From NCBI RefSeq assembly GCF_013201825.1, contig NZ_CP053836.1, positions 186,001 through 250,000 on the forward strand: a stretch of 64,000 bases of DNA, in the 5' to 3' direction. The translations under genes and the position numbers were made by a program. Of the stretch, positions 41,863-48,990 are shown in pieces. Position 1 is the stretch's first letter. The number at the start of each line of letters is the position of its first letter. The DNA is from Halarcobacter ebronensis (lineage in GTDB: Bacteria; Campylobacterota; Campylobacteria; Campylobacterales; Arcobacteraceae). The notes beneath the pieces are model-generated. The model ran no database searches, had not been told where the DNA came from, and saw only the letters and a program-made list of their open reading frames with translations.

Positions 41863-42414
41863 ATGAGAATGAAGTTACATCATACACCATATGTTTCAAG
41901 AAGAATTTCAAGAGATTTAGCAAATTGCTCTTTTGTAGAGATTAGAAGAACAAAAGATGAAATTACAGATGAAATTGAAAAAATTCTTGATGAAGACATT
42001 GAAAATGAGTATGCATTAGACGAAAAAGTAAGTGAGATTTTAGAGGGACAAGAAGAGAATATTGAGTTTTATAATGCCGACTATAGACAGTTATTTTGGC
42101 TAACTAAAAAGAGAATGGCTAATGACTTTGGTGTAATTTTAAATAATGAAGATAGATTTTCTGACATTGCACATAGAATTTTAGATTATTTATGGGAAGA
42201 GGATTATATTCACTATACTTGTTCAGATAATCAAGTAAAAAACGTAATTTTTGCTTCAATAAGTGAATTCTTAAAAGGTTTTGAAAAAGCTGATGATGCA
42301 GTTATGGAAAAAATAAAACACTATAAAAGAAAGTTGATACCAGGTACTGATGAATATGATATTGTATATCATAGACTATATGAGGAAGAACTAATTAAAA
42401 GAGGATTGATGTAA
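41863..42414 (+). CDS. DUF507 family protein
   Basis: The 183-aa protein has the DUF507 pattern: KLHHTPYVSRRISRDLANCSFVEI at the N-terminus, and RMANDFGVILNNEDRFSDIAHRILDYLWEEDYI near residues 84-116. The family is conserved in Campylobacterota and Aquificae, and its function is unknown. It lies between purA and carA with gaps of 4 and 1 bp, so it is tightly cotranscribed with nucleotide-synthesis genes. Confidence 0.88.
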   Translation: MRMKLHHTPYVSRRISRDLANCSFVEIRRTKDEITDEIEKILDEDIENEYALDEKVSEILEGQEENIEFYNADYRQLFWLTKKRMANDFGVILNNEDRFSDIAHRILDYLWEEDYIHYTCSDNQVKNVIFASISEFLKGFEKADDAVMEKIKHYKRKLIPGTDEYDIVYHRLYEEELIKRGLM

Positions 42415-42415
42415 T

Positions 42416-43540
42416 ATGCAAAAAGTATGGATTTATATCGAAAATGGTACATATTTAGAGGCGGAGTCTTTTGGTGCAACGGGAACTTCTGTTGGTGAGA
42501 TTGTATTTAATACTTCTTTAACAGGGTATCAAGAGATTATAACAGATCCAAGTTATGCAGGACAATTTATCACTTTTACAATGCCAGAGATTGGAAATGT
42601 GGGAGTAAATAAAAATGATATGGAGAGTTCAAAAGCTCACTGTAAAGGTGTGTTTGTAAGAAATTATCACCATGAATACTCTAGTTTTAGAGGTGAAAAT
42701 GATTTAGCTTCATTATTAAAAGATAACAATGTTCTTGGAATTTGTAATATTGATACTAGATATTTAACAAAAATGATAAGAGATGAAGGGGCTATGATGA
42801 TGATAGCTTCAACAGAAATCTCAAACAAAGATGAATTGGCAAAAATGCTAAAAGATAGCCCTAGAATTGAAGATATCAATTATATAAAAGAGGTTACTAC
42901 AAAAGAGCCTTATGTACATAAATATGGTGCATGGGATCATCAAAAAATGGCATATAAAAAAGCAATGATGAGTGATAAAAAAGTTATTGCAATAGATTTT
43001 GGTATTAAAAGAAATATCTTAAATGAGCTTGTTGAAGCAGGACTTGAAGTAGAAGTTGTACCAGCTTCTTTTAAAGCAGAAGATCTAATAGCTAGATATG
43101 AAGCTGGAGAGATTGGAGGAATTTTCCTTTCAAATGGACCAGGAGATCCTCTAACATTAACCCAAGAGAAAGCTCAACTTCAAAAACTTATAGATAAAAA
43201 TATCCCTATTTTTGCTATTTGTTTAGGACACCAAATGCTTTCAATTGCTCATGGGTTTGATACATATAAACTAAAATTTGGACAACACGGTGGAAACCAT
43301 CCTGTTGCAAATTCTGATACAAAAATAGTTGAGATAACAGCGCAAAATCATAACTATAATGTACCTGATAATATAGTAGAAATTGCAGATATAACACATA
43401 TAAATCTATTTGACAACACTATTGAGGGTGTCAAATATAAAAATAAACCTATTTTCTCAGTACAACATCACCCTGAGGCTAGTCCGGGACCGCATGAGTC
43501 AAAATATATTTTCGGCGAATTCGCAAAAATAGTGAAATAG
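42416..43540 (+). CDS. carA: Carbamoyl-phosphate synthase small (glutaminase) subunit
   Basis: CarA hydrolyses glutamine and passes ammonia to CarB for pyrimidine and arginine synthesis. The 374-aa protein has the N-terminal CPSase domain (TGYQEIITDPSYAGQFITFT) and a class I glutaminase domain with nucleophile cysteine in FAICLGHQMLSIAHG (about residue 270) and the His/Glu pair in FSVQHHPEASPGPHE near the end. The gene is the last before the accessory region. carB is not in the window. Confidence 0.97.
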   Translation: MQKVWIYIENGTYLEAESFGATGTSVGEIVFNTSLTGYQEIITDPSYAGQFITFTMPEIGNVGVNKNDMESSKAHCKGVFVRNYHHEYSSFRGENDLASLLKDNNVLGICNIDTRYLTKMIRDEGAMMMIASTEISNKDELAKMLKDSPRIEDINYIKEVTTKEPYVHKYGAWDHQKMAYKKAMMSDKKVIAIDFGIKRNILNELVEAGLEVEVVPASFKAEDLIARYEAGEIGGIFLSNGPGDPLTLTQEKAQLQKLIDKNIPIFAICLGHQMLSIAHGFDTYKLKFGQHGGNHPVANSDTKIVEITAQNHNYNVPDNIVEIADITHINLFDNTIEGVKYKNKPIFSVQHHPEASPGPHESKYIFGEFAKIVK

Positions 43541-44289
43541 TTCACTTTTTTTGCCGAATCTCGGCGTTAAAAATCTAAAATAACTCGTCACATACTTCTA
43601 GTATGCTCCTCACTAAAATCCACCATTTGCCTTGAATCTAAACATAACTAGCTGTTTTTGATATTGTAAAAACTCAAAACAGTAAACTTAACAACGAATT
43701 ACAAAATATAAATTGAGTATCACACCAATTAAAATAAAATGGTATTAAAAAAGCAAAGGTCAATTTCCACTCTCCCACATTTGAGAAGCCGAGTGTTTAT
43801 TTCTCTTTTCGAAAAAGTTTTTCAACTGTTTGAGCGTCAAAAATATAACTAATTTATGTTTTAGCGAGTTTTGAAAAACAGAAAAGAGAAAGAATAAACG
43901 AGGGCAGTTTCACCTTCGAAACTTTGTGGGATGGTTTCTTTCTTACTTTCTTTTTCATAAAAGAAAGTTGGTAAGAGAGAATAATATATAGTAAAAGTTT
44001 AGTTACACTTAAATATATTGATAATAGTTTTACAATAATACAACATAATATATTTATCATTTTGTTAAACTATCAAGATTTTCATCCGATAGTCATACAA
44101 AATAATAAGATATCAAGGATATACCTTGATAATCCAACATAAATAATTGCATATTCCTTGATATAATTTTATATTTTATTGAATTTAGACTAATTAAGGC
44201 TTAATTGAGTTAATATCTTTACATTTTTATTGTTAAAATATTAGATGTTTTTATATATTATTTATATATAATGTATTATTAATAAGTAG
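43541..44289. repeat. Non-coding spacer with a long imperfect inverted repeat
   Basis: No gene is supported in these 749 bp. A long imperfect inverted repeat spans 43773-43931, with terminal TCCCACA/TGTGGGA. Inside it, GAGTGTTTATTTCTCTTTTC (43791) matches the complement of the arm at 43881-43902, with a 3-nt insertion. A second hairpin at 43941-43976 has TCTTACTTTCTTTT/AAAAGAAAGTTGGTAAGA. This looks like a repeated extragenic palindrome or a small non-autonomous element. A 68-codon frame on the minus strand (43854-44060) overlaps the repeat and looks spurious. Confidence 0.5.
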
Positions 44290-44309
44290 TTATAGAGAAA
44301 AGAAGAAAC

Positions 44310-45464
44310 TTGAAAAACTTTACAGAAATTATTAAAGAAATAAAAGCACCAAGCATTGAAGATAATATTGAGTTAATCAAATCTTCAAAAGCAAAAAAAG
44401 ATAATGTTGAAAATTATAAAATAAGTAAAGAAATAAATGCTTACAATTTATATTTATATCTCTTTGCTCGTTTTGGAAAACCTAATGGATTATTATCTCT
44501 ATTTAGAGAAGAAGATAGCGACCAAATGTTTCACTGGCATTATATTTTTGAATATAACGATAGCATTATTCAAATAATGTGTACAACATATAGAATAGAA
44601 GTTTTTATGCCTACTAACTTAGTATCATCACAAGATGAATGTATATCATTTCTAAAACAATTAATAGAAGATATTCAAAATTATAAAGCAGAAGCTACAA
44701 AAACACGTAAAATAATTGAAAATTGGGAAATGATAGTCAATCCTTTTGCAAAAGTACAAAAGCAAATCAATATTTTTATAGATGAAATTGAAAATCTTGT
44801 AAGCGAAATACCAGACTTTAAACATTCTCATGTTGATGGCACAGAATTGTCTTTGGAAGAATTTTCAAAATGGGCTCAATTAACAGAAGAATTATCTGCA
44901 AAAAGTTATGCTCTTAAATGCTTAGTTCCTGTTTATATTGAGACTTTTTTAAATTTTACAATTCAAATTCTTGCAAAACAAGAGATAAAAGATGATAGAG
45001 ATAAATTTGAGGAATATATAAGAGAACAAATTCATATTAAAATACAAAAACTTCACGAAAAATGTATTGGATTTATTTATCCTATTGATTGGGAAGGTGA
45101 TATATGTAAATCCATCCATACAATATTTAATAAGAGAAATGATTTACTGCATGGTAATTTTAATATTAAAAGTTTAAAATATGGAGAAATAGGTTTTATT
45201 AAAAATATGCCATTATTTAAAAAGTTCTCTAGCTTTCAAGAAGATATATTGAATCTTTCTCTAGCAACTGAAAACTCAAATGTTGCAATAAAAGAAATAG
45301 AAGATGCTCAATTATTTATGATGTACGTTTTAATAAGTTTAGATACTTCAACTAGAAAAGAACTAAAAAGAATGTTAGAATCTTATACTTTAGGCTGGAA
45401 TAAATCTACAAAACGTTTTGGAATACTATTTAATAACAACTCAGTAGATTTCAAAGTTGGGTAA
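44310..45464 (+). CDS. Cassette 1: protein with C-terminal HEPN-like RNDLLH motif
   Basis: The 384-aa protein starts at a TTG preceded by AGAGAAAAGAAG, 20 bp into the cassette. No named family is recognised for the first 200 residues. In the helical C-terminal part, RNDLLHGN (Arg276, His281) matches the Rx4-6H active-site motif of HEPN ribonucleases, with the polar residue after Arg that is usual. The setting after KSIHTIFNK is also typical of Apea-like HEPN domains. A defence or toxin role is inferred. It is followed 8 bp later by attC1. Confidence 0.65.
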   Translation: MKNFTEIIKEIKAPSIEDNIELIKSSKAKKDNVENYKISKEINAYNLYLYLFARFGKPNGLLSLFREEDSDQMFHWHYIFEYNDSIIQIMCTTYRIEVFMPTNLVSSQDECISFLKQLIEDIQNYKAEATKTRKIIENWEMIVNPFAKVQKQINIFIDEIENLVSEIPDFKHSHVDGTELSLEEFSKWAQLTEELSAKSYALKCLVPVYIETFLNFTIQILAKQEIKDDRDKFEEYIREQIHIKIQKLHEKCIGFIYPIDWEGDICKSIHTIFNKRNDLLHGNFNIKSLKYGEIGFIKNMPLFKKFSSFQEDILNLSLATENSNVAIKEIEDAQLFMMYVLISLDTSTRKELKRMLESYTLGWNKSTKRFGILFNNNSVDFKVG

Positions 45465-45472
45465 TGGTAAAT

Positions 45473-45542
45473 GTATAACAAGTACGAGGAACGCAATAAT
45501 TTACCCTAGCGGGGAAATTATCGCTCACGACAAACGTTAGTC
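45473..45542 (+). other. attC1
   Basis: R'' GTATAAC and R' GTTAGTC enclose a folded region whose central hairpin is ATAATTT-ACCC / GGGG-AAATTAT. The flanking L boxes (ACGAGGAACG and CGCTCACG) pair imperfectly, with unpaired bases on one side. Recombination would occur after G45536. Confidence 0.85.
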
Positions 45543-45561
45543 TATACAAAAGGAACAAAAA

Positions 45562-45906
45562 ATGACAACAACAGTAAAAATTGATTTATTTAGTCCAAGA
45601 TGGGGACATACTGATGAGTATAAAATTGTTTTAGAAGAGAATATTATGACCATTTCAATGAGTGCAAGAAAAGCAACATGTGAATTTGATTCAGAAGAAA
45701 ATTACATATGGAGTAAAGATTTGGGTTCAGATGCTTTATTTAAAATATTAGATAATGATAGTATATGTTATCCAAGAAATTTAAAAAGTTCATTAGTCAA
45801 AATCTGGAGAACATGGGTAAGTGGAAAACTAAGTGATATTGAAATACAAGATAAATTTAAAGAACTTGAAACCACAATTAATACAACAACTAAAAATAAT
45901 TCATAA
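45562..45906 (+). CDS. Cassette 2: small unknown protein, 114 aa
   Basis: The protein begins VKIDLFSPRWGHTDEYKIVL and is soluble, without cysteine motifs, signal peptide or membrane segment. I recall small hypothetical proteins with a SPRWGHTD-like start from cassette arrays, but cannot verify this. AAAGGAAC precedes the ATG, which is 26 bp inside the cassette. The cassette of 446 bp is of ordinary size. Function unknown. Confidence 0.75.
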   Translation: MTTTVKIDLFSPRWGHTDEYKIVLEENIMTISMSARKATCEFDSEENYIWSKDLGSDALFKILDNDSICYPRNLKSSLVKIWRTWVSGKLSDIEIQDKFKELETTINTTTKNNS

Positions 45907-45919
45907 AAAGCAAGATAAA

Positions 45920-45988
45920 GACTAACAAAACAGTGGAGCCAATAAATTACCCTGCGGGCAATTCATCAGCTCATTTTAAACGTTATGA
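45920..45988 (+). other. attC2
   Basis: R'' GACTAAC and R' GTTATGA flank L boxes TGGAGC and GCTCA, which pair with one extrahelical G, and a central hairpin AATAAATT-ACCC / GGGC-AATTCAT. It is nearly identical to attC3, as in homogeneous arrays. Confidence 0.9.
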
Positions 45989-46007
45989 TTAGAAAGGAAT
46001 ATGATAT

Positions 46008-46745
46008 ATGGCAGGTGTTTTTTTAAGTCATTCCTCTGTTAATAAACCATTTGCTAGAAGACTAGGAAATGATTTAAGGCAGTATGGGGCGAAGGTATGG
46101 ATTGATGAAGCTGAAATTAAAATTGGTGATTCATTAATTGAAAAAATTTCAGAAGGATTATCTGAAACAGATTTTGTCATCGTACTACTGTCAAAAGCTT
46201 CTTGTGAATCAGAATGGGTCAAAAAAGAAGTTAATATTGCTTTAAATAAAGAGATTTATGGGAAACAAGTTGTTGTACTTCCTTGTTTAATTGAGGATTG
46301 TAATATACCTTTATTTTTAATTGATAAAAAATATGCAGATTTTAGGGATAGTACAAAGTATGTTCAACATAGACAAGAACTAATTTCAACTATGGGATTA
46401 GCCGAAAAATCAGATGATGATTTATTTTTAGATCAGCATATATTTTATGATTTAGAAGATTTAAATGACGGATTTGATGCAGATACAATAAGATATTTTT
46501 CAAAATCTGATTTTCAAAAAGTATTAGAAAGGGTAAAAATGTTTAATATAAATATTTATGGCATTGAACCTTGGCCTAATAAAGAATTTTATAATGTTAT
46601 TGTTTATGAAGAATTTGGAAAAGAGGCTAATGATTCTGAGTGGTATTATGAAGCATTTGAAAAGTTTGTAAAAGAAGGTGTAGAGGATTATTTTTCAGCT
46701 TCTTATGGTGTGCCTCAAGAATTAATTGAGATATTTAAGAAGTAA
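46008..46745 (+). CDS. Cassette 3: TIR-domain protein
   Basis: The 245-aa protein begins with a TIR domain (about residues 1-130): VFLSHSSVNKPFARRLGNDLRQYG, then VWIDEAEIKIGDS (BB-loop region), then FVIVLLSKASCESEW followed by VKKEVNIAL. Trp70 and Glu74 occupy the place of the catalytic Glu motif in NAD-cleaving TIR proteins. The remaining 115 residues are an unrecognised acidic domain that may sense the trigger. NADase activity and phage defence are inferred from family knowledge. GAAAGGAAT precedes the ATG, 26 bp into the cassette. Confidence 0.88.
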   Translation: MAGVFLSHSSVNKPFARRLGNDLRQYGAKVWIDEAEIKIGDSLIEKISEGLSETDFVIVLLSKASCESEWVKKEVNIALNKEIYGKQVVVLPCLIEDCNIPLFLIDKKYADFRDSTKYVQHRQELISTMGLAEKSDDDLFLDQHIFYDLEDLNDGFDADTIRYFSKSDFQKVLERVKMFNINIYGIEPWPNKEFYNVIVYEEFGKEANDSEWYYEAFEKFVKEGVEDYFSASYGVPQELIEIFKK

Positions 46746-46749
46746 GGAC

Positions 46750-46818
46750 TCATAACAAATCAGTGGAGCCAATAAATTACCCTGCGGGAAATTTATCGGC
46801 TCATTTTAAACGTAACCA
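46750..46818 (+). other. attC3 with altered right end
   Basis: R'' TCATAAC, L boxes TGGAGCC/GGCTCA and hairpin AATAAATT-ACCC / GGG-AAATTTAT match attC2 closely. The R' end reads GTAACCA instead of GTTRRRY, lacking one T. The array therefore ends here in a non-cassette junction or a mutated site. Confidence 0.82.
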
Positions 46819-46937
46819 TATATAATACCTTTTAAATACTAATCCTCAGTGCCATATGTATTGGACTAATACAAAAACTTGATTTAATTTAATTATATTG
46901 GTATAATACAACATAATTCGCCTACGGGCAGCCCCGT

Positions 46938-47348
46938 CTAGTCTTTAGACGGGATAAACAATCTAGAAATTTTTTCATTTATTTTCGCAAAATCTATTTT
47001 ATTTATCATTCCAATTCTTGTCATTAGTCTATTTTTATCAAATGTTTTTAATTGAAGAATCATAGCAGAATTTTCTACTAAGCCTTTTTTTGTATTATAC
47101 GAAAACTGATGAAAATAATCATTCTCTTTTAAGGTGCTCGTTAAAGGTAAGCCAACAAAAATATCCTTTGTTAATTTTCTTACAATTAAGACAGGTCTTT
47201 GAAATTCATTTCCTTTGCCATACTCTTCATTACCAATATTTTGTCCAAGTCTTAACCAAAAAATTTCACGCTGTTTAAAACCTACACTATTTATTTTCTT
47301 ATGAGTATCTTTTTTTATCCTATTCCATCTATCAAAATCTTCTTCCAT
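46938..47348 (-). CDS. MazF/PemK-like toxin family protein
   Basis: The 136-aa protein (ATG at 47348 with AAGGA 5 nt upstream; the frame extends 12 codons further without a better site) has the MazF/PemK-like barrel. Visible parts are REIFWLRLGQNIGNEEYGKGNEFQRPVLIVRK, VGLPLTST and a final LMTRIGMINKIDF strand. Members are mRNA endoribonucleases, often paired with an antitoxin. No antitoxin gene is adjacent. The stop codon lies in a CCCGTCTA/TAGACGGG hairpin that may act as terminator. It faces the cassette array on the opposite strand. Confidence 0.75.
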   Translation of the reverse strand: MEEDFDRWNRIKKDTHKKINSVGFKQREIFWLRLGQNIGNEEYGKGNEFQRPVLIVRKLTKDIFVGLPLTSTLKENDYFHQFSYNTKKGLVENSAMILQLKTFDKNRLMTRIGMINKIDFAKINEKISRLFIPSKD

Positions 47349-47427
47349 AAGAGTCCTTATAGTTTTTAAAACTATATCAAACAAATTAGTTTATATATAA
47401 AAATATTGCAGATTGTTATATTATTAA

Positions 47428-48990
47428 TTAAAGTCCTGGTGCTTTCCACATAGAAGTAGCTAATCCTTGATCCACAAGTTCCAACTGCTTTTTATACACC
47501 TCTTGCCATTTCTCTTTTATCTCATCATATAGCTTTTTATTTTCCATATTCGGTAAATACTCTTTATCCCATACTACAAGCTCTTTTGCGGCACTTTTAA
47601 GGTCTTTATATATTCCTGCGCCAACTGCTGCACTCATTACTGCTCCCAAGGCTGTGGCTTCTGTTACTTTTGGTATTTTGATTTTACACCCTGTTACATC
47701 TGCTAGGGTTTGGCACCAAAGTTTTCCTTTACTAGCGCCTCCTGCAAATACTATTGTATCAAATTCACTTTTTGTAAAGTTTTTTACTTTTTCTAAGTTT
47801 ATGGCACTAACTATACAAGCATTCTCTTGCAAGGCTTTAAACATTGAAGCTTTATTGCAAATATTTGGATTAAGGTTTAGGTTTATAAAACTTGGGCTTG
47901 CATGGTACCATTTACCATAATTCATAGTATCACTAAATATTGGCATAATTCCATATGAGCCTACTGGTACATCTTTTGCATTCTCTTCTAGAATCTCATA
48001 GGGATCTTTATTTTGTTTTTTTGCTTCAATTTTTTCCAAATCACAAAAGGCATCTCTAAACCATCTCATTATAAGACCACAAAAGAAAGTGATACACTCT
48101 GCTTGGGATTGCTCTGGGATAACATGGGGATTGATTCTAAGGCTCATATCTTTTGGTGGTAAAATGTCACTTGGGATATTTACTATTTGTTGCCAAAAAG
48201 AGCCACCTAAGATGGCAACTTGTCCAACTTCCACAACTCCAAGTCCAGCACTTCCCAGCTGTACATCTCCACCACCTGTTACAACTTTTGTATTTACACT
48301 TAATGTGGTCTCATGGCTTGCTTTTTGTGTAACATTTCCAATTACTGTTCCAACCTCATAACAAGGACAGAAGATATCATCTTTTATTCCAATCTCTTTT
48401 GCCATAGAGCTATCCCAAACTCTATTTTTTAGTGAGAAGATTCCAGTTGTTCCTGCGTTACTAGGGTCAGTTGCTATTACACCTGAAAGTTTTGCTAATA
48501 TCCAGTCCCCTATCATAGAGATAGTTGTAACTTTTTCATAAAGTTCAGGTTTATTGTTTTTAAGCCATAAGATTCTAGGAAGTGCACCAAGGGCAAAGGT
48601 CTGTCCAGAGGTTTTATAAAACTTCTCTTCAATATTTTCAAAAGAGGTTTTTAGATATTTTACTTCTTTGTAGGCTCTTGCATCAACATTTGCAACACCC
48701 CAAAGTTCATTCCCATCTTTATCATATAAAGCTATAGCTTCTCTCATACTTGTGGCACTAACAGCTAAGATATCTTCAGGGTTAATTGATGCTTTATCTA
48801 TAGCAGTTTTAATACATTTTTTTGTTAATTGCCAGTTTGTCTCAAAGTCAAAGCTCATACTATTTGCTATGCCGTTTTCTTCTAGGTGCGTCCACTCCTC
48901 TTGAAAAGATGAGATTTGCTTACCTTTTGTATCAAAAATAACAGCTCTTATACTTCCTGTCCCTGCATCAATTGCCATTAAATATTGCAT
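47428..48990 (-). CDS. lsrK: Autoinducer-2 kinase LsrK-like FGGY carbohydrate kinase
   Basis: LsrK phosphorylates the linear form of AI-2 (DPD). The 520-aa protein follows LsrK closely over its length: YLMAIDAGTGSIRAVIFD at the start, AVSATSMREAI, VTGGGDVQLGSAGLG, LRINPHVIPEQSQAE, MRWFRDAFC, MPIFSDTMN, and the ending LATSMWKAPGL. I chose the ATG at 48990 with AAAGGAA upstream. It ends a three-gene operon with a class II aldolase and an LsrG-like protein. Activity on a related sugar is possible, but similarity to LsrK specifically is strong. Confidence 0.88.
   Translation of the reverse strand: MQYLMAIDAGTGSIRAVIFDTKGKQISSFQEEWTHLEENGIANSMSFDFETNWQLTKKCIKTAIDKASINPEDILAVSATSMREAIALYDKDGNELWGVANVDARAYKEVKYLKTSFENIEEKFYKTSGQTFALGALPRILWLKNNKPELYEKVTTISMIGDWILAKLSGVIATDPSNAGTTGIFSLKNRVWDSSMAKEIGIKDDIFCPCYEVGTVIGNVTQKASHETTLSVNTKVVTGGGDVQLGSAGLGVVEVGQVAILGGSFWQQIVNIPSDILPPKDMSLRINPHVIPEQSQAECITFFCGLIMRWFRDAFCDLEKIEAKKQNKDPYEILEENAKDVPVGSYGIMPIFSDTMNYGKWYHASPSFINLNLNPNICNKASMFKALQENACIVSAINLEKVKNFTKSEFDTIVFAGGASKGKLWCQTLADVTGCKIKIPKVTEATALGAVMSAAVGAGIYKDLKSAAKELVVWDKEYLPNMENKKLYDEIKEKWQEVYKKQLELVDQGLATSMWKAPGL

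Follow-up and report, generated by a model that had tools for sequence, protein, structure and literature searches.

A TIR-domain gene with an undescribed C-terminal domain carried in an integrase-less integron array of Halarcobacter ebronensis, a candidate single-gene anti-phage module

The window analyzed here is the whole 64,000-nucleotide stretch at positions 186,001 to 250,000 of contig NZ_CP053836.1 of Halarcobacter ebronensis, whose genome consists of one contig of 3.17 Mb. The TIR gene lies in this window as the third of three cassettes in a small integron array, with the following features (window coordinates).

43994-44292, plus strand: leader whose end coincides with the first cassette junction, recurring at other arrays of the genus
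44265-44292, plus strand: attI-like core, TATATAATGTATTATTAATAAGTAGTTA, kept directly before the first cassette of six arrays
44290-45536, plus strand: cassette 1, 1247 bp, delimited by R'' box complementarity
44310-45464, plus strand: open reading frame (ORF) of cassette 1, 384 aa, with an RNDLLH motif and no Pfam family above cut-off
45473-45542, plus strand: attC1 (covariance model 79 bits; bottom-strand hairpin z -2.8)
45537-45982, plus strand: cassette 2, 446 bp
45562-45906, plus strand: ORF of cassette 2, 114 aa, an M1E1E6-like integron cassette protein (PF21648; 78.8 bits, E 4e-22)
45920-45988, plus strand: attC2 (87.5 bits; bottom-strand hairpin z -2.3, no fold on the top strand)
45983-46812, plus strand: cassette 3, the TIR cassette, 830 bp, with end boxes that are perfect reverse complements
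46008-46745, plus strand: TIR gene, 245 aa (ORF list and Pfam match)
46017-46382, plus strand: TIR_2 domain (PF13676), residues 4-125 (Pfam, 99 bits against a cut-off of 28, E 3.5e-28)
46215-46229, plus strand: NADase motif from W70 (46215-46217) to E74 (46227-46229), placed by alignment with AbTIR
46422-46742, plus strand: C-terminal domain, residues about 139-245, predicted alpha/beta (Pfam search and structure model)
46750-46818, plus strand: attC3, end of the array (87.8 bits; bottom-strand hairpin z -4.9)

The sequence-only reading had taken the TIR gene to be an integron cassette, and this was borne out. The gene has attC sites with R'' and R' boxes on both flanks; the three sites of the array resemble one another, score 79-88 bits, and form bottom-strand hairpins more stable than those of shuffled sequences. 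The start of the TIR cassette with its preceding G (GTTATGA) is reverse complementary to its own R'' box (TCATAAC) at 7/7 positions, the corresponding figures being 6/7 for cassette 1 and 7/7 for cassette 2. The cassette contains a single ORF in array orientation, for which AAAGGA was read in the sequence as the ribosome-binding site, and the cassette gene recurs elsewhere with a different attC. The cassette setting thus stands, but the array, with three cassettes and no integrase, is not a Vibrio-type superintegron. A covariance model built from the three attC sites of the array detected nine sites in the genome (six beyond these three), in four places, and matched 13 of the 16 genomes of the genus. 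Rfam gave no match over threshold.

The RNDLLH motif of the cassette 1 protein is of the kind found in HEPN RNases, and the protein appears HEPN-like by eye only. Right after the array, on the minus strand (46938-47384), lies a PemK/MazF-like toxin gene (45.5 bits) with no evident adjoining antitoxin gene and no attC of its own.

With a TIGR02249 match over 265 bits as the criterion, no integron integrase was found in the whole genome, the best match being XerC-like at 77.8 bits (105 as a full protein). An intI gene beside the array was likewise rejected, as no remnant of one was seen in window 42000-48000. Among congeners, intI is intact in G226, G900, G898, and G1565 and broken in others. 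A counterpart of the leader precedes a second H. ebronensis array (L093; 85.6% identity over 299 bp), and another follows carA in congener G1563 (87% over 342 bp). Six arrays in five genomes, one of them (in G898) next to an intact intI, retain the final 28 bases of the leader, which were for this reason read as attI; recombination is expected after G44289. The attI-like core is common to loci L093, L094, L067, L032, and L044 and is repeated within one genome, and some of these arrays have no integrase next to them. More than one attI platform thus seems to be present in a single genome. By the usual terms the array would be classed as a CALIN, yet an attI-like site is retained. Both CALINs and integrons of Campylobacterota have been described before (PMC8618304).

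Between carA and the xylulokinase gene of congener G1563, at the same place as here, the leader is followed by a single cassette of different content (157 aa) that ends in an attC; in G900 and G1570 an EamA-type gene comes after carA. A dispersed element of about 250 bp (72-77% identity; window 43713-43962, L065:602-853, and L079:2985-3281) is situated downstream of carA here and in G1563, and it also precedes a further cassette in the same genome.

The second array of H. ebronensis, also integrase-less, lies at about 1197387-1202460 of contig NZ_CP053836.1 (L064, L093). It comprises an attI-like leader, a 303-aa gene, a 607-aa reverse transcriptase ending at an attC-like site, and a 451-aa cassette. 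The C-terminal part of the reverse transcriptase matches PADLOC RT_UG36 (142.7 bits), so that it is possibly a defense reverse transcriptase within an integron array. A third array beside guaA, at about 1895256-1899320 (L066, L096), carries PLD-like, HNH, and PIN-domain genes and has the attI-like core with no integrase remnant; to judge from coordinates alone, the corresponding site in several congeners appears to retain intI, in intact or broken form. The UG36-type reverse transcriptase and the HNH, PIN, and PLD genes at these other arrays are consistent with a defense role of the TIR gene.

Within the TIR domain, W70 and E74 correspond in alignment to the W and E of AbTIR, and all 12 aligned TIR sequences, the one from the window among them, have both residues; the proposed TIR gene with an NADase motif is hence upheld. 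The closest profiles are those of defense TIRs, namely the PADLOC candidate PDC-S66 (80 bits) and the retron RT-TIR, with NCBIfam Retron_TIR_antiphage at 77 bits, which favors a defense reading. A second TIR match in the genome (965979) was rejected as a thioredoxin-like protein.

ThsB profiles match the TIR protein at up to 44 bits, and W70 aligns with W204 of AbTIR, a residue that influences the cyclic product (PMC10937652). Both would be expected of Thoeris-like signaling, where an effector encoded elsewhere is switched on by a cyclic ADP-ribose isomer from the TIR domain, which does not itself drain NAD+. We consider this unlikely, since no ThsA-type partner is present in the array or its flanks within the 64-kb window, and no partner is shared among the three phyla in which the gene occurs singly, in two of them as a cassette.

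The C-terminal part of about 107 residues matches no Pfam family even at E 10, which agrees with its earlier description as a domain of no known family fused to the TIR domain and leaves no housekeeping adaptor family to which it could be assigned. Searches against PHROG gave nothing better than E 0.06, and no solved structure in the PDB was matched by sequence. The domain is rare, with matches in 5 of roughly 1,700 genomes, which counts against a phage-sensing role, as does its absence from the viral contigs, phages, phage-like contigs, and plasmids searched. It also occurs without TIR, as a lone 116-aa protein in one Bacteroidota genome (L023), and so has some function of its own, a further point against the sensor reading. 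One Pseudomonadota genome has a distant match; another, in L009, was dismissed as chance, the L009 protein being a sensor/GGDEF protein.

Structure prediction from an alignment of three sequences, which did not draw on loci retrieved by the genome search, gave a model of the C-terminal domain (mean pLDDT 75.5, pTM 0.70) with roughly a helix-strand-strand-helix-strand order, the second strand being very short. A full-length AlphaFold model of the TIR protein was set aside owing to a pLDDT of 53 from three sequences, and a BFVD fold search with the C-terminal domain found nothing convincing. The best PDB match of the domain model was chain A of 2fhz, from the colicin E5/immunity complex (Foldseek probability 0.82, E 0.54; Z 7.6 over 80 residues at 2.7 A and 14% identity), scores of a level (E 0.54, Z under 8) that can stem from a common arrangement. 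The colicin E5 RNase domain has a beta meander, and the order of elements in the model seems to fit the immunity protein better. We take the likeness as a hint of a protein-binding domain and no more.

The same match could suggest a self-contained toxin, in which the C-terminal domain would be an immunity-like inhibitor in cis and the cassette would be kept as an addiction or stress module rather than primarily as a phage sensor. The existence of the domain as a small free-standing protein would suit such an inhibitor, and toxin-antitoxin modules are common in cassettes, one being present in the array of Fodinibius halophilus described below. Nevertheless, there is no separate partner gene, and the structural match may reflect a common alpha/beta arrangement, which makes this explanation very unlikely in our estimation.

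In a scan of species genomes, two full-length relatives of the TIR protein were found, in F. halophilus (57% identity) and in an Acidobacteria MAG (56%). The Fodinibius orthologue is again an integron cassette, with ends complementary at 12/12 positions, in an array whose attC sites are quite different from those of H. ebronensis. That array also holds a toxin-antitoxin pair, a neighbor consistent with a defense role. The Acidobacteria orthologue has a C-terminal extension and, as far as seen, no cassette; it adjoins an AbiJ_NTD3-TIR gene (L010:5085-6674, minus strand), likewise consistent with defense. The two-domain protein is thus conserved across three phyla, with a cassette context in two.

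The TIR halves of the H. ebronensis and Fodinibius proteins are 66% identical and the C-terminal domains 49%, as expected if the latter is a faster-changing sensor. The remaining relatives share the TIR half only, with different partner domains (the "WIDEAEIK.GDSL" group), and such joining of related TIR domains to many domains is what is usually seen when a single effector is combined with interchangeable sensors. A different undescribed C-terminal stretch, YNV.F.LS..P..EWV.IF..ERRFPRHTMWR.AWIE, is common to the TIR proteins of a Thermotogaceae and a Bathyarchaeota MAG (L013, L015).

Host immunity is the target of some bacterial TIR proteins, and the protein could accordingly be a host-directed effector or scaffold with no NADase role in phage defense. 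This is highly improbable, as the relatives belong to a halophile and an Acidobacteria MAG with no evident animal host, the catalytic residues are kept, and the closest profiles are defense TIRs.

Since a second phylum harbors the same gene, again in an integron cassette, we regard a mobile one-gene phage-defense module as probable. Our preferred explanation, to which we give a probability of roughly 0.55, is an abortive-infection NADase effector carried in an integron cassette, with the C-terminal domain as its sensor. SpbK binds a phage portal via its non-TIR domain, and its clustered TIR domains then cleave NAD+ (PMC12847820). As SpbK has the same plan in reverse domain order, we propose a corresponding course of events. 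The TIR domain, predicted from its sequence to be an NAD+-cleaving enzyme, would be idle as a monomer or dimer. The C-terminal alpha/beta domain would, by analogy, act as the sensor and bind a trigger, most simply a phage protein, and binding would bring TIR domains together and build composite active sites. The clustered domains would then deplete NAD+, and infection would be aborted. The TIR gene is probably transcribed from the attI-side leader, with read-through of cassettes 1 and 2; against this part of the explanation, a promoter scan found promoter-like sites at the level of chance for A+T-rich DNA. NADase activity, C-terminal sensing, the defense role, and expression are all inferred.

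A wider interpretation is that the protein represents a new class of one-gene sensor-TIR defense proteins, sensing through an undescribed binding domain of the immunity-protein-like type and passed between phyla in an integron cassette. In the genus of Halarcobacter it would reside on attI platforms that lost, or never had, an adjacent integrase. We regard this interpretation as a whole as tentative and rather unlikely.

Anti-phage integron cassettes and single-gene sensor-TIR NADases (SpbK) are already known kinds. What is new is that an orphan domain is fused to TIR, that the fusion recurs as a cassette in two phyla, and that it sits on an integrase-less array with an attI-like site; in the open papers searched, no TIR integron cassette and no Arcobacter integron was found. 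If the proposed explanation is true, TIR sensor-effectors join the defense genes moved by integrons, cassette-borne defense extends to Campylobacterota and Balneolota, and a new, small domain becomes available for a direct ligand search. The attI-like platforms without integrase across one genus offer a test case for the origin and cassette change of integrase-less arrays.

Several known systems resemble the one described here in part. The colicin E5/immunity complex provides the best structural match to the C-terminal domain, at a likeness below the level of confidence and with no sequence relation found. Thoeris ThsB belongs to the same TIR domain family, but its match is weaker, and the protein studied here has an extra C-terminal domain. 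The retron type XII RT-TIR and PDC-S66 have the closest TIR profiles (77-80 bits); the former, however, has a reverse transcriptase domain, which is absent here, and the match is confined to the TIR residues. The anti-phage integron cassettes of V. cholerae, V. parahaemolyticus, and mobile integrons (PMC12409362 and works cited therein) are likewise single compact genes between attC sites, and according to that review about 10% of V. cholerae integron cassettes have anti-phage activity; such genes are thus frequent in integrons, which favors a defense role of the TIR gene, whereas here the cassette holds a TIR gene in a Campylobacterota genome without an integron integrase. SpbK of Bacillus subtilis, which served as the model for the proposed mechanism, likewise combines a small sensor and a TIR domain in one protein. 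Its N-terminal part is a helical bundle and its TIR domain is C-terminal, whereas in H. ebronensis the order is reversed and the non-TIR domain is alpha/beta, so that the two proteins are likened by their domain plan.
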